Positions 526 to 8,194 of a stretch of DNA of 64,000 nt are shown here, one piece after another. Location of the stretch: contig JAOZHW010000015.1 in assembly GCA_026014685.1 (NCBI GenBank), positions 124,001 to 188,000 on the forward strand, in the 5' to 3' direction. A model generated the notes under the pieces. It saw only the letters and a list, made by a program, of their open reading frames with translations. It searched no databases and was not told the origin of the DNA. Position numbers and translations under genes: made by a program. How positions within the stretch are numbered: position 1 is the first letter of the stretch; each line of letters opens with the position of its first letter. The DNA is from Candidatus Bathyarchaeota archaeon. GTDB lineage: Archaea > Thermoproteota > Bathyarchaeia > Bathyarchaeales > Bathycorpusculaceae.

Positions 526-1434
526 ATGAAGTTTTCAGCGATTATGTTAGCGTTTATTCTTTGTTTGGCTGCTTGCTTTAGCGGTGATGTTGCGGTTGGG
601 CAGGATGGGGATACATATTCTCTGCAGCTTCAAGGCTACGTTTGGAACCACTCGACGCTGTCAGCGCTGGTTGTAACTACAGAGAATGAATCGTGGTGGA
701 ACCCATCCTACGTCAACGACACACTTCGAGCGGTCGGGCAATGGAACAACGCCCTCGAAGCGTACGCGGGCAACTACACCGATTACGCTTACCTTGCGAA
801 CCTAAAAATCAACCCGCGTGTCTCCAGTGAAATTCGACCCGGCTACGACCTCTACATTTCATGGGTTGAATCCTCGATAAGCAATATGTCTGATGAGGTG
901 GGGTTGGCTCAGACTTTTATCCGCGGCGACAACACCATAATAAACTGCACCATAACTCTTGCCGCTAAAACCAATCACGGTGTCGCCCTCAGCGCTACAG
1001 ATATGCAGAATATCGCGTTACATGAGGTGGGACATGGATTAGGGCTGGGTCACAGCAACTATACAGGCGATTTGATGTATTCACTGTACCGTTTGGGTGA
1101 TTCGCCAGTTGCAGTTTCAACTTTGAACGTCTATGGCGTGGCGGCTGTTTTCGGGTGGATGCCTAACCCGTCGGGGTTTTTGCCCATCAGCGGCTGGTTC
1201 AAGCAGAACTCGGTTTCTTTGTCGGCTCAAAATTATGGTTACTTGTGGGTGGCGCCAGAGAATTCTCCGCCGCAGTCATTAGCTGATAATGTTGTGGTTC
1301 AGTTTTTGGTTTTGATGTGGGGGCTTTTGTTGCATCCTGAAATCGGGTTACCCGTGGTTGGTTTAATTTTGCTTTTTGTTGTTTTAGTCCTTATTCCAAG
1401 AAAAAGGAAGCCGACCGTTAAGGTTGACTCATGA
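526..1434 (+). CDS. Membrane-anchored matrixin-like zinc metalloprotease
   Basis: A 302-residue exported metalloprotease. Residues 1-25 look like a signal peptide. The extended zinc site HEVGHGLGLGH is at residues 166-176, with His166, His170 and His176 as ligands and Glu167 as catalytic base, followed by a Met-turn-like DLMY near 182-185; this is the metzincin (matrixin/M10-like) pattern. A hydrophobic segment near 258-290 followed by RKRK should anchor the C-terminus, leaving the catalytic domain outside the cell. No separate propeptide with a cysteine switch is evident. It stands alone, convergent with the MBL gene, whose 3' end overlaps it by 17 bases. The substrate is unknown. The family call is secure, the biological role is not. 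Confidence 0.85.
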   Translation: MKFSAIMLAFILCLAACFSGDVAVGQDGDTYSLQLQGYVWNHSTLSALVVTTENESWWNPSYVNDTLRAVGQWNNALEAYAGNYTDYAYLANLKINPRVSSEIRPGYDLYISWVESSISNMSDEVGLAQTFIRGDNTIINCTITLAAKTNHGVALSATDMQNIALHEVGHGLGLGHSNYTGDLMYSLYRLGDSPVAVSTLNVYGVAAVFGWMPNPSGFLPISGWFKQNSVSLSAQNYGYLWVAPENSPPQSLADNVVVQFLVLMWGLLLHPEIGLPVVGLILLFVVLVLIPRKRKPTVKVDS

Positions 1435-2032
1435 ATTCGATGAATTCGCTTTGGGTTCGTGGTTTTAGGACGTAGTTGGTTTTTCTTTCTTTGCCGATGG
1501 TCGAGAAAGGCATTCGACCGTAGTCGTGTCCAGGGTATACCTCGATTGAATCGTCGAGTTTTAAAAGTTTGTTAAAAAGGCTGTCGTAAAGATTTTTTGC
1601 ATTTCCGCCTGGCAAGTCGGTTCTGCCGCATTCGCCAACGAAAAGTGTGTCACCAGTTAAGAGTTTCTCGTTGGCTATTAGCAGGCAGATGCTGTCTGGG
1701 GTGTGGCCGGGGGTATGGATGATTTTTATTGGGATTTTGCCGACGGTTAAGGTGTCGCCGTCTTCGACTTTTAGGTCGCTGTCCAGTTTTGTTTGTTTAT
1801 GGGCAACTGTTTGGGCGGCAAAGAGGGCTTTTAATTCGGTGTTGCCTGCGGTGTGGTCTGAGTGCCCATGGGTGTTGATTATGTATTTTAGTTTCAGGTT
1901 TTGGGTTTTTATGGTTTTGATTATTTCAGAGGCGTTATAGCTGGGGTCAACGACTGCGGTTTCTTTGGTTTCTGTATCAGCTATGAGGTATGAGAAGTTG
2001 TCGCCGTGTAGTTGGATTTGCCTAAAATACAT
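1418..2032 (-). CDS. MBL-fold metallo-hydrolase (glyoxalase II-like)
   Basis: A 204-residue metallo-beta-lactamase fold protein. The dinuclear metal motif THGHSDH lies at residues 54-60 (His55, His57, Asp59, His60); later ligands fit HTPGHTPDS near 108-116, the GDTLF segment and YPGHDYG near the C-terminus. The length and motif set match the short glyoxalase II/persulfide dioxygenase-like group without a rhodanese domain. It probably hydrolyses a thioester or oxidises a persulfide in the cytoplasm, but the motifs do not decide between them. It sits 4 bases downstream of the HD-domain gene at the 3' end of the leftward run that starts with the NHEJ genes. Confidence 0.85.
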   Translation of the reverse strand: MYFRQIQLHGDNFSYLIADTETKETAVVDPSYNASEIIKTIKTQNLKLKYIINTHGHSDHTAGNTELKALFAAQTVAHKQTKLDSDLKVEDGDTLTVGKIPIKIIHTPGHTPDSICLLIANEKLLTGDTLFVGECGRTDLPGGNAKNLYDSLFNKLLKLDDSIEVYPGHDYGRMPFSTIGKERKTNYVLKPRTQSEFIEFMSQP

Positions 2033-2036
2033 GAAG

Positions 2037-2522
2037 TCACCGCTGCTCTTTCTGTCTCTGCGTCAGCCAGCTTTTTGCCAGTTCCTGCCCTTTTTTTGAA
2101 TAAATCAGCGATACGATTTTGTTCCAGTTGAAGCCTTCGCGGGCGTTGTAGTAGGGGTATTCTTGGGGGGTGAGCATGACGAGTTTGTCGGCGTCGTAGA
2201 GGGCGAGGAAGGGTTCGGAGGGGTTGTCGGGGTGGTCGTGGTGGGTGGCGATGATTTGGCAGACTTGTTTGATGAATGTGTCTGGGCAGTTTAGTTGTTT
2301 TAGGAGTTGGGTGGCGATTTGGGGGCCTTTTTCGTATTGGTCTTTGATTGTGCAGCCGCCGATGTCGTGGAGGATGATGGAGGCGTAGGTTAAGTCTTGG
2401 AGTTCGGGTTTTACTGGGAAGTTTTGTTTTGCGATCTCAAAAACCCGTTGTGTATGTGATACTCCGAAGTCGTTGTTCTCCAAGATAGGTGTTGCTAGCT
2501 GCCAAAGTTTGTTGATATCCAT
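2037..2522 (-). CDS. HD-domain hydrolase
   Basis: A 161-residue protein with the HD metal-dependent phosphohydrolase signature: His23 in VSHTQRV, His52-Asp53 in LHDIGG, a THHDHP segment near residues 91-96 and a later DADKL supplying the final Asp. The size fits single-domain HD hydrolases such as small nucleotidases. The substrate cannot be read from the sequence. It lies between the DUF72 gene (24 bases upstream) and the MBL gene (4 bases downstream), so it is probably co-transcribed with them; a direct link to end joining is only positional. Confidence 0.8.
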   Translation of the reverse strand: MDINKLWQLATPILENNDFGVSHTQRVFEIAKQNFPVKPELQDLTYASIILHDIGGCTIKDQYEKGPQIATQLLKQLNCPDTFIKQVCQIIATHHDHPDNPSEPFLALYDADKLVMLTPQEYPYYNAREGFNWNKIVSLIYSKKGQELAKSWLTQRQKEQR

Positions 2523-2545
2523 ATTTTCACTGTCTTAGTTGATTT

Positions 2546-3337
2546 TTAGAAGTAACTGGATAAAAGCTGTTTCGCTTCATCGCCAGCTTTAGGTTGCGTA
2601 TCGATCAGTGCAGAAAGTGTTGATATGTCTTTTGGCGGGAAGCCTGAGTAGTATTTTGCGAAGTAGCCAAAAACCTCTGTTTTGCTTAAAAATGGCTTGA
2701 GTTTTTCAGCCCACAGGGTTAAGTCAGCAGTTTTGTCGATCTCGAGTTTGCCCAATGTGCCGTTAACGGTTTGTCGAGTGCCTTCCCAGCGTATATACAG
2801 AAAAGCGCCAGTCACTTCTCTGACCTCAGCCATGATGGCGTTGTCTGCCCATGCCAAAGCGACTCCGTTCTCACGTAGCAAACTGTAAAATTCGGGGGTT
2901 AACCAGCTTTTGTTTCTGACTTCAACTACGTAGCGATGATTTTTGGGCAGTTTTTGAATATAATCGGCTAAATCGGCGAAGTGCTGTGCAGTGAATGTTG
3001 GCGGGAATTGAAGAAGGAGCGGGCCAATTTTTTGCTCTAAAAATGCAACGCGGTTTAGGAAGGTTTCTGTTTCGGGTTGGCAGTTTTTGAGCATTTTGAT
3101 ATGGGTTATAAGCTGGGGAAATTTGAGTGCAAACAGGAAATCCTCGGGGGTCTGGGCTGCCCAGTTTTGGATTGTTTGCTGGGTTGGGATGCGGTAGAAT
3201 GTGCTGTCAACTTCTACCGTGTTGAATTGGTTAGCGTAGTAGGAGAGGTAGTCTTTGGAGGCTGTTTTGGCGGGGTAAAAGTTGCCCTTCCAAAAGTTGT
3301 AGCTCCAGCCAATCGTGCCCAGATGCAGCTTAGGCAT
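2546..3337 (-). CDS. DUF72 family protein (YecE-like TIM barrel)
   Basis: 263 residues of the DUF72 family, recognised by the N-terminal GTIGWSYNFWKGNFYP, the VEVDSTFYR block, the LLLQFPP block, the YVVEVRNKSW block and a terminal YFAKYYSG-type segment. Members are predicted TIM barrels with no agreed biochemical role; some bacterial members are linked to DNA damage or Fe-S contexts only by neighbourhood. The gene start overlaps the ligase stop by 8 bases, which implies translational coupling with the NHEJ genes and makes this a candidate accessory factor. Confidence 0.85.
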   Translation of the reverse strand: MPKLHLGTIGWSYNFWKGNFYPAKTASKDYLSYYANQFNTVEVDSTFYRIPTQQTIQNWAAQTPEDFLFALKFPQLITHIKMLKNCQPETETFLNRVAFLEQKIGPLLLQFPPTFTAQHFADLADYIQKLPKNHRYVVEVRNKSWLTPEFYSLLRENGVALAWADNAIMAEVREVTGAFLYIRWEGTRQTVNGTLGKLEIDKTADLTLWAEKLKPFLSKTEVFGYFAKYYSGFPPKDISTLSALIDTQPKAGDEAKQLLSSYF

Positions 3338-4796
3338 GGCTGTCTTTTCCCTTCAGCAGCAACCAATTCTTTTGGTCCTCGGATGTTTTGAGACGAACCA
3401 GAACATAGCGGCCTTCAAGACGCTGACCGTGCAGGTTGACTTCGATTTTGTCTTTCTCCCAAAGCTTTACGTCAAAGTGGCCTTTGTCCCAGATTTTCAC
3501 TGTCCCCGCCCCGTATTGCCCCTTTGGGATTTCACCCTCAAAACTGGCGTATTCGTAAGGGTGGTCCTCGGTTTCTACAGCGAGGTGACGTACGTTGCTG
3601 GTTTGGGGGATGCCTTTAGGAACCGCCCAACTTTTCAAGACGCCGTCTTTTTCGAGTCGGAGGTCCCAGTGAAGTTGGCGCGCGTGGTGTTCTTGGATGA
3701 CGTAGATTTGGGGTTCTTTGGTTTTGTTGGTTCCTTTGGGTTCGGGGGTTTGTTGGAAATTGCGTTTTGATGTGTATTCGGAGAGTTTTTCTTCTGTGGG
3801 TGGTTGGGGTTTGGGGGTTTCTGCTGTTTGTGTTGTGGGTTGTGTGGGTGTTAGTTGGTCGAGGGTGCATTGTTCGGGTGGTTTGTCTTCTCTTAATCTT
3901 TTGAAACGTGCCATTCTTAGTTTTCCATCCTTTGTTACAACTTGATAGGCGACTTCACAGACGAGTTTGGGCTCCAGCCAAGTGACTACGTCGCCTTTTT
4001 CAGGCTCAAAAGGCGCAGCATCCGTGGTTATTTTCTGGAATTTAGCCATTAAGGTGCGGAGTGTTTGTTCGGTGAAGCCTGTGCCCACTTTGCCCACATA
4101 AACAGGCTGCTTGCTCTTGTCGTAGAGCCCCAACAGCAAAGCGCCAAACGTTTGCTGCCGCACGTTTTCACCTCGGGTGTAACCAAAGATGATGCAGTCA
4201 CAGGTTTTTAGCTTCTTTATCTTTAGCCAACTACCTGTGCGTAAACCTTCCTCGTATCGGCTGTCCTTGCGTTTCGCGACAACCCCCTCCAGCCCCTTCT
4301 CCAAAATCAGCCCAAAGTAGGCTTCCCCTTTTTCTTCGATGTAGTCGCAGAGAAGCACGTTTGAGCCTTCTTTTAGCGCGTCTTTGAGGATAGCTTTGCG
4401 CTCCATCAAGGGCAAGTCCAAAAGCGGCTCACCGCCCTTTTCTAGAATATCAAAAACTACGTAGACCGCTGGTGCGCGTTGCATTTGCCGCTGGATTTCA
4501 CCCGCCGAAACTGCTTGTCCACGTTTGAGAAGCGCTTGGAAGTCAGGTACACCCTGCTGCATCACGACGATTTCGCCGTCCACCACGATGTCTCTGCCCA
4601 AGCTTGTCAATTGCTGCAGTTCAGGGAAATTCTGCTTCAGTTCTTTACCGTTGCGGCTCCGCAAACTAAACGGCTCCTCCACATAGGCGATGGCGCGGAA
4701 ACCGTCCCATTTAATTTCGAAAATCCACTCAGCGTCGGTGAAGGCTTTCTGCGTGTCGAGTGCAAGCATGGGGCGGTAGAGGCGGCTGCGGGTCAT
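3330..4796 (-). CDS. ligD: NHEJ ATP-dependent DNA ligase with C-terminal 3'-phosphoesterase domain
   Basis: 488 residues. Residues 1 to about 315 form a LigD-type ATP-dependent ligase: motif I EIKWDGFR with Lys29 as the adenylated nucleophile, a VVDGEIV motif, EGVVAKRKDS (motif IV) and SWLKIKK (motif V). A Pro/Thr/Glu-rich linker leads to residues 364-488, a LigD phosphoesterase domain with EHHARQLHWDLRLE and TEDHPYEY, containing the His, Asp and Arg residues known for 3'-end trimming in this family. The order Lig-PE differs from bacterial Pol-PE-Lig and PE-Lig-Pol fusions. The start overlaps the Ku stop (4 bases). It should heal and seal DNA double-strand breaks together with Ku and the polymerase. 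Confidence 0.93.
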   Translation of the reverse strand: MTRSRLYRPMLALDTQKAFTDAEWIFEIKWDGFRAIAYVEEPFSLRSRNGKELKQNFPELQQLTSLGRDIVVDGEIVVMQQGVPDFQALLKRGQAVSAGEIQRQMQRAPAVYVVFDILEKGGEPLLDLPLMERKAILKDALKEGSNVLLCDYIEEKGEAYFGLILEKGLEGVVAKRKDSRYEEGLRTGSWLKIKKLKTCDCIIFGYTRGENVRQQTFGALLLGLYDKSKQPVYVGKVGTGFTEQTLRTLMAKFQKITTDAAPFEPEKGDVVTWLEPKLVCEVAYQVVTKDGKLRMARFKRLREDKPPEQCTLDQLTPTQPTTQTAETPKPQPPTEEKLSEYTSKRNFQQTPEPKGTNKTKEPQIYVIQEHHARQLHWDLRLEKDGVLKSWAVPKGIPQTSNVRHLAVETEDHPYEYASFEGEIPKGQYGAGTVKIWDKGHFDVKLWEKDKIEVNLHGQRLEGRYVLVRLKTSEDQKNWLLLKGKDSHA

Positions 4797-5620
4797 TTCT
4801 TTTCCAGCTGCTTTAGGGTCTCACGCAGGGCAACCATGAGGTTTTTGGCTTCGACTTCGGGAGCTTTTTCAACTGTGATTTTTTCGCCTTTCATTTTCTG
4901 CTCCACCAGTTTCTGGACGCGCTGCATGTAGGTGTCTTCGAATTCGGCTATGTCGAAGTCGCCTGAGAGGTCTTTGACGATTTTTACTGCCAAGTCCAAT
5001 TCAGATTTCTCTGGTTCAGGCAGCTTTCCCAATTTTTCGAAATCCCGTGGGTCAACCACATCGTAAGCGTAGCGCAGAGTCGTCAGCACCAACGCCCCTT
5101 TGTAAGTGTGCAACAGTGCAGGGTACTCTTTGGTGCGCAGCGTTATGCGTGCAGCGCCTGCTTTATTGGTTTTCTCAAGCGCTTTTAGCAACAGGCTGTA
5201 GGCGTCTTTGCTTTTGTCAGGCAAAAGTGCGTAGGTGCGGTCGAAGTAGATGGGGTCAACGGAGAAGTAATCGACGAATTTGCTTATGCGGATGCGTTTG
5301 CCAGATTCAGGCCGCACAGCATCAAGCTCTGCTTTTTCGAAGGTTATGTATTCGTTTTTGGCGACTTCGTAACCGCGGACAACCTCATTCCAAGGCACGA
5401 TTTGGTCATCTTTGGTGCACATTTTCACGTACTTAAGTGGGTGTCCATCCTTTTTATGTAGAAAATGGAAAGCTACGCCTTTATCGTAAATCATCGAGTA
5501 CAATTTTACGGGAACATTGACCAGTCCAATGGTTATTGAGCCTGACCATATTGAGCGGCTGGGCGCGGCGGCGCTGGATTTCTCAGTTTGGGTCGCCTCG
5601 AGGTTTTCTTGCTCAGTCAT
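4793..5620 (-). CDS. ku: Ku DNA end-binding protein
   Basis: A 275-residue prokaryotic-type Ku. The N-terminal SIWSGSITIGLVNVPVKLY is diagnostic, followed by VVRGYEVAKNEYI, the SVDPIYFDRTY strand region and ARITLRTKEYPALL of the ring-forming core. It is a homodimeric ring that threads onto broken DNA ends and recruits LigD activities. The length fits the minimal bacterial form, with a short Lys-rich C-terminal tail. The gene sits between the polymerase gene (3 bases upstream) and the ligase gene (4-base overlap), a tight operon. Ku is rare in archaea; Methanocella is the characterised case. Confidence 0.95.
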   Translation of the reverse strand: MTEQENLEATQTEKSSAAAPSRSIWSGSITIGLVNVPVKLYSMIYDKGVAFHFLHKKDGHPLKYVKMCTKDDQIVPWNEVVRGYEVAKNEYITFEKAELDAVRPESGKRIRISKFVDYFSVDPIYFDRTYALLPDKSKDAYSLLLKALEKTNKAGAARITLRTKEYPALLHTYKGALVLTTLRYAYDVVDPRDFEKLGKLPEPEKSELDLAVKIVKDLSGDFDIAEFEDTYMQRVQKLVEQKMKGEKITVEKAPEVEAKNLMVALRETLKQLEKK

Positions 5621-5623
5621 ACC

Positions 5624-6502
5624 TTAAATCTCCAGTTGATGTCTCTTTTGAAAAAGGTCTCTCCACGGATCCGCCCTGCGTTGGGGGACACTAAAGATGG
5701 TGTAGTCCGCTGGATTTAGCCCTTTCTTAACTTCACTCCACTCCAAGGGGGTTGAGGCTGAAGCGTTGGGTGTGGGGCGGAGACTGTAGGGGATAACCAT
5801 GGTGCGCATAGGCGAATTCTGCAGATAATCCGCAAAAACTTTGCCAGGTTTCTTGGTGTCCTTGAATTCAGAGACTACCAAGCTGTTTTCTTTGGCGAGT
5901 TCGACGCCGATTTTATGCACAAATGCCCGTGCCTGCTCAAAACTGTAACGCGGCTCAATAGGGATAACGACATGCAGCCCTTTTTTGCCCGAGGTTTTAA
6001 CGAAAGCCGATAGACCCATACCGTTAAGTTTGTCTTTTAGTTGCAGGGCGACTTCGGCGGCGTCGCTGAGGGTGGCGGGTGGTTCAGGGTCCAAGTCGAA
6101 GAAGAGCAAGTCAGGCTTGTCTATGTCTGTGGTGGTGGAGAAGGGCATGTGGATTTCCAGCGCCGCCATGTTCGCCAGCCAAATTAGGGTGTCAAGGTCG
6201 TTGCAGACGATGTAGCGGACATCCCGTTTCGAAGTCGATGAGTAGATGGGGTAGAGTTGGACCCAGCGGGGGGTGCCTTCGGGCGCGTTTTTTTCGTAGA
6301 AGCTGCTTTCTCCGTTTATACCGTCGGGGTAGCGGGTTAAGACGAGGGGGCGGTTGGCGATGACGGGGAGAATTTTGGGTGCCATGCGAATGTAGTACTC
6401 GATGACCATGGCTTTAGTGACTTTAGCTTCGGGGTAGAAGACCTTGTCCAAGTTTTTTAGCTCTACCTTCGTTAACTGTTTTAACTCGTCAAGGTCTTCC
6501 AT
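5624..6502 (-). CDS. LigD-type primase-polymerase (NHEJ polymerase)
   Basis: 292 residues of the archaeo-eukaryotic primase superfamily, LigD Pol branch. Catalytic metal ligands are Asp136 and Asp138 in FFDLDPE, with a third carboxylate in VFADYLQ near residue 225; the nucleotide-binding SGKKGLHVV (His177) is intact. The N-terminal KVFYPEAKVTK and VLTRYPDGINGESSFYEKN match the LigD Pol pocket for the 5'-phosphate end. It fills and tails ends during break repair, with a ribonucleotide preference known for the family. It is first of the three NHEJ genes, 35 bases after vapC, and has a GAAAGGT-type ribosome-binding site. Confidence 0.93.
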   Translation of the reverse strand: MEDLDELKQLTKVELKNLDKVFYPEAKVTKAMVIEYYIRMAPKILPVIANRPLVLTRYPDGINGESSFYEKNAPEGTPRWVQLYPIYSSTSKRDVRYIVCNDLDTLIWLANMAALEIHMPFSTTTDIDKPDLLFFDLDPEPPATLSDAAEVALQLKDKLNGMGLSAFVKTSGKKGLHVVIPIEPRYSFEQARAFVHKIGVELAKENSLVVSEFKDTKKPGKVFADYLQNSPMRTMVIPYSLRPTPNASASTPLEWSEVKKGLNPADYTIFSVPQRRADPWRDLFQKRHQLEI

Positions 6503-6537: not shown

Positions 6538-7047
6538 TTAATCCCGCTTTTTCGCTTTGTGCGTTTGTTTTAGGCGTGCCTCTAATTCATTTTGGTTTTT
6601 AGTTAGGTTAATGGTTTCTATTCCTGCATGGGCACTTGCTTGGACAAGTTTTTCATCCCCTGTCAATAGAGCATCAGCTTGGCTATACTGAGAACTGGCT
6701 ATTTGGAGCGCGTCAGCCTCGTAGATGTGGTGGGTCAGCAGTAGCTTCCATGTATCCAGCAACATCGGAGTTTGAATAGGAACGATTTCAAGTGTTTTTA
6801 GACGTATGAGCTTTAACAGTTCGTTGGCGAAATGTGCTAATGTTTCGTCATATTGATCTTTGGTTAGCCAGCCTCTTCGGAGTTTTTCATCAAGGACACC
6901 TAACACTTCGCCGAGGTTCCACAACGAAAAAACTATCGTCAGTTCACCTGCTTCTGCTTTTTCATATATTAAATCAGCTGCTTCGGTTCCAGGTTCGGTT
7001 AGGTATCGTTTTAGAATTGCACTTGTATCGAGGTAGAGTTTAAGCAA
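6538..7047 (-). CDS. vapC: PIN-domain toxin (VapC-like)
   Basis: A 169-residue PIN-domain ribonuclease. Acidic residues fit the PIN pattern: Asp7 in YLDTSAILKRYL, Glu near 45 in LWNLGEVLG, and Asp residues in YEADALQIA and ALLTGDEKLV. It overlaps the upstream antitoxin gene by 8 bases, the usual type II arrangement. VapC toxins cleave tRNA or rRNA when released from VapB. It is followed after 35 bases by the NHEJ polymerase gene in the same direction, so read-through could link the two units. Length slightly exceeds the typical 130-150, owing to a basic C-terminal tail. Confidence 0.85.
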   Translation of the reverse strand: MLKLYLDTSAILKRYLTEPGTEAADLIYEKAEAGELTIVFSLWNLGEVLGVLDEKLRRGWLTKDQYDETLAHFANELLKLIRLKTLEIVPIQTPMLLDTWKLLLTHHIYEADALQIASSQYSQADALLTGDEKLVQASAHAGIETINLTKNQNELEARLKQTHKAKKRD

Positions 7048-7315
7048 CCCGTTTATGCCTCATTGCGCTGATGATTTCTTCTGATGGAGGACCTTTGAGC
7101 GTGGGACGTTTTTCTCTGATTTCTTTTGATGAAGTCTCTTTTTTGGGTATTCCGAGTTTTTTGAAGGTGGATGCGATTTCGTCGTCAACAGTTTCGTTAC
7201 GGAGTATGCGTTCTACTTCGTAGCTTAGTTTTCGGAGGCTGCCGTGTTTTTTGAAGACTTGTGTTTTGAAGTTGCCCCAAACTTCGTCATCTAAATATAC
7301 TGTTACTTTAGTCAA
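7040..7315 (-). CDS. vapB: VapB-like antitoxin
   Basis: About 91 residues from a TTG start at 7315 (LTKVTVYLDDEVWGNFK). The start VTVYLDDEVW is the beta strand of a ribbon-helix-helix DNA-binding domain, followed by helices to about residue 50; the C-terminal half, rich in charged residues and ending RHKRVA, would wrap the toxin. A longer reading frame upstream exists but would begin inside the TATA/operator region, so the internal TTG is preferred. It overlaps vapC by 8 bases. A perfect palindrome at 7327-7346 is the obvious autoregulatory site. Confidence 0.78.
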   Translation of the reverse strand: MTKVTVYLDDEVWGNFKTQVFKKHGSLRKLSYEVERILRNETVDDEIASTFKKLGIPKKETSSKEIREKRPTLKGPPSEEIISAMRHKRVA

Positions 7316-7326
7316 AGACAACCACA

Positions 7327-7354
7327 CTGGTTTACTGGTAAACCAGCATATAAA
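7327..7354 (-). promoter_or_regulatory. vapBC promoter with palindromic operator
   Basis: On the minus strand a TATA box (TTTATATG, 7347-7354) is followed at once by a perfect 9-bp inverted repeat, CTGGTTTAC-TG-GTAAACCAG (7327-7346). The repeat covers the expected transcription start, about 25 bases from the TATA box, and ends about 12 bases before the vapB start. This is the expected layout for repression by a VapBC complex. The assignment is inferred from position and symmetry. Confidence 0.65.
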
Positions 7355-7570
7355 GTTGGTTAAAACACGAACATAAAAAACCCAGAAAACAAGATACAAT
7401 GTACAAATGCACTGTTTTTCATCAAAAATCGCTCTTTTTTACAGTTAACCCTATATAGGCAGCATCACATAATTAAAAATGCTGAATTAATCAAGATAAA
7501 AGGTAACTTTTCACTTACCAAGTAATCTTTTCGAGGTAATTCGCTAAAAAATGGGGGAGATATTCAAAAA

Positions 7571-8194
7571 ATGAAGCCAAAGAAGCCCACACTTGAAGAC
7601 CAACTTGCGTTTATCTCAGCGCAGCATGAAGTCTACCCAACCGAACTCTTCGACGCCCTAGTCCGATCCAAAGACGAAGGCAAAAAAACCGTCGGAGACT
7701 TAACCGTCGAATACCGAGGCAACGTAAACAACCAAGCCATTTTCCTAATAACCAAAGAAGGCAAAGTCGTAGCCCAATTCCGCGTCCCAGACCAAACCCT
7801 CAGAAGAACCGACGTCTCCTTTGACAGTTCCATGGAAACTGGTCGGGTACGTAAAGAAATAGCAAAACAAAACCCCGCACCAACGCACCTCAAAATCGAG
7901 GACCTGCGAGTCGGCATGAAAAAAATCAACGTCCTCGCCCAAGTGGTCCAAGTTGCCGAACCCTCAAAAGTGCACACCCAATTCCGCGACAACGCAGTAG
8001 TCTCAAACGCTGTAATCGAGGATGAAACAGGCAAGATTCTGCTCTGCCTCTGGGACCAACAAGTAAACACGGTACATGTAGGCGACTCGGTCGAAGTGAA
8101 GAATGCGCATGTTGCGATGTTTAAGGGTGAGAGGCAGTTGCGGTTGGGCAAAAACGGAACTGTACGCTTATTGGAAGAACCCTTAAGCAGTTAA
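7571..8194 (+). CDS. OB-fold nucleic acid-binding protein (RPA/SOSS-B-like)
   Basis: 207 residues. The C-terminal half carries a single OB fold of the replication protein A/SOSS-B type: LKIEDLRVGMKKINVLAQVV, a central VIEDETGKILLCLWDQQ strand pair and VGDSVEVKNAHVAMFKGERQLRLG. The N-terminal 95 residues (PTLEDQLAFISAQHEVYP...) are a separate domain I cannot assign. It probably binds single-stranded DNA or RNA. It is transcribed divergently from vapBC and the NHEJ operon, a suggestive but unproven repair context. ATG start; T-rich tracts follow the stop. Confidence 0.75.
   Translation: MKPKKPTLEDQLAFISAQHEVYPTELFDALVRSKDEGKKTVGDLTVEYRGNVNNQAIFLITKEGKVVAQFRVPDQTLRRTDVSFDSSMETGRVRKEIAKQNPAPTHLKIEDLRVGMKKINVLAQVVQVAEPSKVHTQFRDNAVVSNAVIEDETGKILLCLWDQQVNTVHVGDSVEVKNAHVAMFKGERQLRLGKNGTVRLLEEPLSS

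Follow-up and report, generated by a model that had tools for sequence, protein, structure and literature searches.

The closest described relative of the operon considered here is the archaeo-prokaryotic non-homologous end-joining (NHEJ) system of Methanocella paludicola, in which a primase-polymerase (Pol), a phosphoesterase (PE), a DNA ligase (Lig) and Ku are encoded by separate genes (PMC4797286). In bacteria, the same three catalytic domains are joined beside Ku in one LigD protein, either as PE-Lig-Pol (Pseudomonas type) or as Pol-PE-Lig (Mycobacterium type), with PE ahead of Lig in both. An archaeal review names a complete NHEJ set for Methanocella only (PMC8708640), and Ku together with LIG was reported in ten archaea among 243 (PMC7719229). 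Here we describe an operon in Candidatus Bathyarchaeota archaeon (assembly GCA_026014685.1, contig JAOZHW010000015.1, positions 124,001 to 188,000; this stretch of 64,000 nucleotides is called the window), from a Bathyarchaeia genome of 2.3 Mb that is 99% complete. The operon has the same four activities as that of Methanocella, is likewise archaeal and is built of homologous domains, with a Pol and a PE like those of known structure; it differs in that Lig and PE are fused. It differs from LigD in having Lig ahead of PE and Pol as a separate gene. The Lig-PE gene is followed by a gene of the DUF72 family, and we consider it likely that the whole is a complete archaeo-prokaryotic NHEJ operon with DUF72 as a dedicated fourth gene.

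The idea that DUF72 serves DNA repair is not new. The DUF72 protein Tm1631 was computationally predicted to be a DNA-lesion endonuclease (Konc et al., PMC3828134; Ogrizek et al., PMC4939058), and DUF72 is reported to be enriched beside polB2 in archaea and bacteria (PMC11791011). Those PolB2 operons resemble the present one in that DUF72 neighbors a polymerase system for DNA damage; they differ in that the pathway is translesion synthesis, and the passage describing them does not mention NHEJ genes.

RESULTS

The operon and its genes

The operon and the genes that follow it lie on the minus strand at positions 1418 to 6502, in the order Pol, Ku, Lig-PE, DUF72, HD and MBL, and Pol, Ku, Lig-PE and DUF72 form one tight unit at 2546 to 6502.

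5624-6502, minus strand: NHEJ primase-polymerase (LigD Pol-type), a separate gene and the first of the unit (PF21686, 2.3e-81; TIGR02778, 2.5e-74)
4793-5620, minus strand: Ku, prokaryotic homodimer type (TIGR02772, 9.8e-76; PF02735, 2.4e-41)
3330-4796, minus strand: Lig-PE fusion of 488 residues (TIGR02779, 5.9e-84; TIGR02777, 5.7e-58; PDB matches 1vs0 and 3p43)
2546-3337, minus strand: DUF72 (TIM barrel of the YecE/Tm1631 family), NHEJ-linked archaeal subclade (PF01904, 2.4e-58)
2037-2522, minus strand: HD-domain protein (PF01966, 1.6e-7)
1418-2032, minus strand: MBL-fold hydrolase, glyoxalase II-like (PF00753, 4.1e-27)

Pol and Ku are separated by 3 bases, Ku overlaps Lig-PE by 4, Lig-PE overlaps DUF72 by 8, and gaps of 23 and 4 bases precede HD and MBL, respectively; these coordinates, gaps and overlaps agree throughout with a preliminary description of the window. 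The domain calls for Pol, Ku, ligase, PE, DUF72, HD and MBL are all above curated cut-offs. As in archaeo-prokaryotic NHEJ, a Ku with the beta-barrel core (TIGR02772) is encoded beside ligase, Pol and PE (TIGR02779, TIGR02778 and TIGR02777). Pol being a separate gene, the locus does not encode a single-chain DNA ligase D, and Lig-PE and Pol score 249.7 and 255.1 against TIGR02776, for which the cut-off is 373.2. The operon, as had been proposed from the sequence, is an archaeal NHEJ core of a known kind with a predicted function in end joining.

Within the fusion protein, the ligase is N-terminal (TIGR02779, residues 9-311) and PE is C-terminal (TIGR02777, residues 338-485), which bears out the domain order first described. 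The ligase part has an intact KWDG motif and matches 1vs0, the ligase domain of M. tuberculosis LigD. The PE motifs (EHHARQLHWDLR ... DHPYEY) align closely with 3p43, an archaeal PE of known structure, and include the residues His/His/Asp/Arg/His/Tyr reported for the PE of Methanocella (PMC4797286). The earlier statement that all catalytic residues are visible thus holds for the PE motifs and the ligase lysine motif, and Pol and Ku rest on full-length family matches. The DUF72 protein is also full-length, covering positions 1-216 of the 217 in the PF01904 profile.

DUF72 follows Lig-PE in two archaeal phyla

We read the gene order at all 54 Ku loci of the class Bathyarchaeia and at further archaeal loci. 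Pol > Ku > Lig-PE was found at nearly all Ku loci of the Bathyarchaeia families f1, f6, f21 and f27, in L105 (same phylum, other family, found by a phylum-wide search), in L115 (Methanosarcinales), L117 (archaeon LFW-280) and L119 (Methanomicrobiales), and, split across two contigs, in Methanoperedens (L116+L298). As counted from this reading, DUF72 lies directly after Lig-PE in 33 of the 43 decidable loci, namely those where the sequence reaches far enough past Lig-PE, and these come from two archaeal phyla; the window's genus contributes 11 (out of 18 decidable there, with DUF72 fragmentary in one of the 11) and other archaea 22 (out of 25). The order Pol-Ku-LigPE-DUF72 recurs with its tight spacing in families f1, f6, f21 and f27, in L105, and in the Halobacteriota loci L115, L117 and L116+L298 (Methanoperedens).

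When all the genes surrounding 47 archaeal loci from 17 lineage groups were clustered without supervision, the only families present in most groups were Lig-PE (16/17), Ku (15/17), Pol (14/17) and DUF72 (13/17, with 33 loci). An ABC ATPase family came next, with only 5 groups. DUF72 proteins of the class with at least 45% identity to that of the window were found only at NHEJ loci or at an operon remnant. Two apparent exceptions were resolved, the contig of G255 ending inside Ku and that of G254 breaking inside Lig-PE. The remnant, in G128, retains the end of Lig, PE and DUF72 and has lost Ku and Pol.

In a phylogenetic tree, all linked archaeal DUF72s fell into one clade (SH-aLRT support 98) apart from the other archaeal DUF72 paralogues, and the only unlinked members of this clade were those of G252 and G253, which have Ku, and of the remnant G128. 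The DUF72s of G252 and G253 (39-40% identity) are sited away from Ku; therefore, the linkage is not absolute. DUF72 is under purifying selection, with a median ratio of nonsynonymous to synonymous substitution rates (dN/dS) in the genus of 0.13 versus 0.06-0.09 for Ku, Pol and Lig-PE; these values are rough, dS being near saturation. We found no DUF72 fused to NHEJ proteins, the long frames in G+C-rich genomes not being fusions, and neither DUF72 nor PE near Ku on 39 viral contigs with Ku.

DUF72 lies beside Ku in two bacterial phyla

As an independent test, Ku and DUF72 were also located in the same bacterial genomes, with proximity defined as lying within 8 kb of Ku and the counts expected under random placement calculated from genome size and DUF72 copy number. 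DUF72 was near Ku in 10 of 61 Ku-bearing genomes of Actinomycetota (0.63 expected) and in 5 of 15 of Myxococcota (0.10 expected), about 16-50 times above random placement, in phyla carrying a different LigD. The Poisson P is about 1e-6 in each phylum, even with the expectation doubled; these values overstate the strength of the result, since the two phyla were picked because the first matches (L171, L172 and L177) already showed the link and their genomes are interrelated. The preliminary description had tied DUF72 to NHEJ and had named a lack of enrichment beside Ku as the finding that would speak against it; that test was run, enrichment was found, and the tie is upheld by the archaeal and the bacterial loci.

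The arrangement in bacteria varies. In the Myxococcota loci L308 and L310, DUF72 runs in the same direction as a PE-Lig-Pol LigD gene and either overlaps its end or almost abuts it; in the Myxococcota loci L171 (= L312) and L172, it starts about 15 bases after Ku; and in L299-L304 and L307, it lies a few kb from Ku, facing it. Fourteen of the 17 linked bacterial DUF72s group in one clade (support 98), which also contains two unlinked sequences. Because this clade is separate from the archaeal one, the tree indicates that the linkage of DUF72 to NHEJ arose at least twice.

Structure and conserved residues of DUF72

An AlphaFold2 model of the window's DUF72 (mean pLDDT 86.8) matched the DUF72 structures 1vpq (TM-score 0.78), 1vpy and 1ztv in a fold search. 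Tm1631 (1vpq) thus shares its fold with the window protein, and it also shares the residues of the phosphate site predicted by Konc: E42, K72, H79, Q110, E139, R141 and R183 are kept in the linked DUF72s, with R141 present in 26 of the 28 linked archaeal sequences aligned. The two differ at Ser7 of Tm1631, where the NHEJ-linked archaeal clade has Met or Ile, and at the pair Asn239-Asn240, where all 28 of the linked archaeal DUF72s have Ser/Gly/Ala (once Asp)-Lys instead; the archaeal signature at residues 226-228 is F-S/G/A-K instead of F-N-N. Most of the 9 or 10 linked bacterial DUF72s with letters at the Asn239-Asn240 site have Lys-His there. From these features we infer an enzyme that retains the predicted phosphate site, carries a change specific to its clade and works on DNA ends alongside Pol and PE.

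Lower in the same fold search, among many TIM barrels, endonuclease IV (4hno) appeared with an E-value of 4.9e-3 and a TM-score of 0.51, and sugar and glycoside enzymes were listed beside it. An identity of DUF72 as endonuclease IV or UV-damage endonuclease was rejected on the weak fold match and the lack of a conserved Asp/His/Glu metal set in the clade.

Lig precedes PE in archaea

Among all loci examined, Lig before PE was found in archaea only, at dozens of loci. The bacterial fusions with PE that we compared (L107, L108, L109, L111, L164, L167, L171, L172, L179, L189, L190, L299, L300, L302, L304 and L306-L311) always have PE before Lig, as PE-Lig-Pol, Pol-PE-Lig or PE-Lig, and no bacterial locus examined, plasmid LigDs included, has the reverse. 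The Lig-PE order is thus characteristic of this type of archaeal NHEJ rather than peculiar to the window genome. Its earlier characterization as unusual is accurate relative to the bacterial loci examined and does not extend to the archaeal type, in which it is the normal form. No published description of this order was found in a literature search that took in no subscription papers. Lig and PE are separate frames at three loci (L040, L041 and L080), with a 4-base overlap in L040 and L041. Genome G648, which we take to be that of Methanocella paludicola, encodes Ku, but none of Pol, Lig and PE lies within 9 kb of it, and DUF72 is not near it either.

Neighboring genes

HD lies beside the operon in 6 of the 19 Ku-bearing genomes of the window's genus and, among the 47 clustered archaeal loci of 17 lineage groups, beside Ku nowhere outside it. 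Limited to six genomes of one genus, HD was rejected as an NHEJ partner, and the coupling first suggested for it was not supported. MBL was rejected as well, its position being genus-level synteny that is kept even where DUF72 is absent; the MBL protein scores 131 bits against TIGR03413, under the equivalog cut-off of 200.8.

Directly upstream of Pol, at 6538-7399 on the minus strand, is a PIN-domain gene with an overlapping small upstream gene, a VapBC-like pair not seen at related loci. An RPA/SSB-like OB-fold gene at 7571-8194 on the plus strand diverges from the operon, a position that is conserved in most of the genus's genomes.

Ku and NHEJ architectures across archaea

Ku was present in 54 of 257 Bathyarchaeia genomes (13 of 109 genera), in 25 of 398 sampled genomes of the window's phylum and in 40 of 247 Halobacteriota. 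Archaeal NHEJ, which had been described as rare, is so by genome count, a statement qualified by the numbers for this class and for Halobacteriota; it is far more frequent in Bathyarchaeia than the review PMC8708640 implies, and it occurs in several gene architectures. Two of the Ku loci of the window's genus were met again as L113 and L114, from 'Candidatus Bathyarchaeota archaeon' palsa_989 and fen_992. Bathyarchaeia family f10 has another type, with a divergent Pol, Ku and Lig and neither PE nor DUF72 at the locus.

In Halobacteriota, Ku and an ATP-dependent ligase occur in one polypeptide of about 650-670 residues (L347:1337-3340, L348:8826-10796 and L354:7329-9278; in L348, Pfam places Ku at 12-174 and ligase at 287-585), and in seven members (L339-L345) Ku is followed by Lig and then by a PE-Pol fusion, which is yet another order of domains (checked with Pfam on L341). 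Methanolinea-like genomes (L121, L346, L349 and L351) have Pol-Ku-PE at the locus and no ligase there. The PE gene of Methanoperedens BLZ2 (L120:8786-9301) starts with about 20 residues typical of a ligase N-terminus, as if the ligase domain had been deleted in frame (compare L117). A 'Candidatus Parcubacteria' contig (L152, 0.7-Mb genome), real or mis-binned, has Ku followed by separate PE and Lig.

Within Bathyarchaeia family f7, Ku-less members (L358, L359, L360 and L361) have a Pol-PE fusion or a Lig-PE with truncated ligase; this ligase looks decayed, since it is shortened and its KWDG motif is changed to KWNG or QWGG. In a class-wide search of whole genomes, 188 of 257 had PE (PF13298), mostly as short stand-alone frames and where Ku is lacking, which suggests that PE probably has a role outside NHEJ.

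DISCUSSION

Comparative genomics makes an association of DUF72 with NHEJ very probable. As a mere passenger, DUF72 would be an ordinary gene that became fixed downstream of the operon in a single ancestor and has since moved with it by descent or transfer, with no role in end joining. One archaeal DUF72 clade does travel with one operon type, and about one in four decidable loci has lost the gene or carries a broken copy. However, no other flanking gene is kept across lineages, DUF72 is held by purifying selection, and separate DUF72 clades in Myxococcota and Actinomycetota are equally close to Ku with differing gene orders and strands, and we regard a mere passenger as improbable. Still less credible, and disfavored, is the view that only the Lig-PE fusion is novel and that DUF72-HD-MBL is a house-keeping block. 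MBL still adjoins the operon where DUF72 is absent (L023, L036 and L037), as such a block might predict, but HD and MBL are confined to the genus, whereas 12 further lineage groups have DUF72, but neither of these two genes, at the operon.

DUF72 could instead be a general DNA-damage-response protein, co-expressed with several repair systems (polB2 and NHEJ) and taking no part in joining itself, its work being, for instance, the removal of lesions or nucleotide-pool or signalling chemistry. Its proximity to polB2 in both domains (PMC11791011), its frequency in Ku-less genomes, and the many chemistries served by TIM barrels, with sugar and glycoside enzymes listed next to endonuclease IV, all fit a general role. 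Against it, the NHEJ-linked archaeal DUF72s are a separate subclade with a signature of their own, and within the class the NHEJ-type DUF72 goes with Ku. We judge a general role unlikely, though it deserves serious weight.

A dedicated DUF72 also has to accommodate several observations that weigh against it. The gene is absent from 10 of the decidable loci (seven of the window's genus, and L086, L087 and L119) and broken in L039, and is therefore dispensable. It also has a higher dN/dS than Ku or Pol. The family is widespread in genomes without Ku; thus, NHEJ is not its general role. Because of their common ancestry, the 33 archaeal loci do not count as 33 independent events. The similarity to endonuclease IV is weak and common to many TIM barrels, with no zinc ligands conserved, and the published nuclease claims (PMC3828134, PMC4939058) are computational only.

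In the proposed pathway, Ku would bind and bridge broken ends, Pol would fill gaps with a preference for ribonucleotides, PE would strip 3'-phosphates and excess ribonucleotides, and the ligase would seal the ends, as expected from well-studied families and conserved residues. DUF72 is putatively a translationally coupled accessory of this pathway, perhaps an end-processing enzyme. Its targets may be DNA ends or unpaired nucleotides, and it would process ends by cleaving phosphodiester bonds or binding lesions, a task for which Pol, PE and ligase do not substitute, as suggested by its TIM-barrel fold, the conserved predicted phosphate site and the published Tm1631 predictions. That it works directly on DNA ends as an enzyme is a tentative prediction; otherwise, a non-nucleolytic or regulatory role would be expected.

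The variant with the Lig-PE order and a dedicated DUF72, and the cross-domain linkage of DUF72 to Ku, appear to be new; a full-text literature search returned no paper with both 'DUF72' and 'NHEJ'. It is conceivable, if somewhat short of probable, that DUF72 constitutes an additional functional class of NHEJ component in prokaryotes, which was taken up on at least two occasions (by archaeal Pol-Ku-LigPE operons and by myxobacterial and actinobacterial Ku/LigD loci) and processes DNA ends or lesions before joining. To our knowledge, DUF72 has no agreed function in organisms from E. coli to archaea. If DUF72 does process ends or lesions in NHEJ, this would be the first role assigned to a TIM-barrel family that ranks among the most widespread uncharacterised ones. 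The linkage to Ku/LigD in two archaeal phyla and in bacteria provides a concrete hypothesis for DUF72 that is testable with four small proteins.

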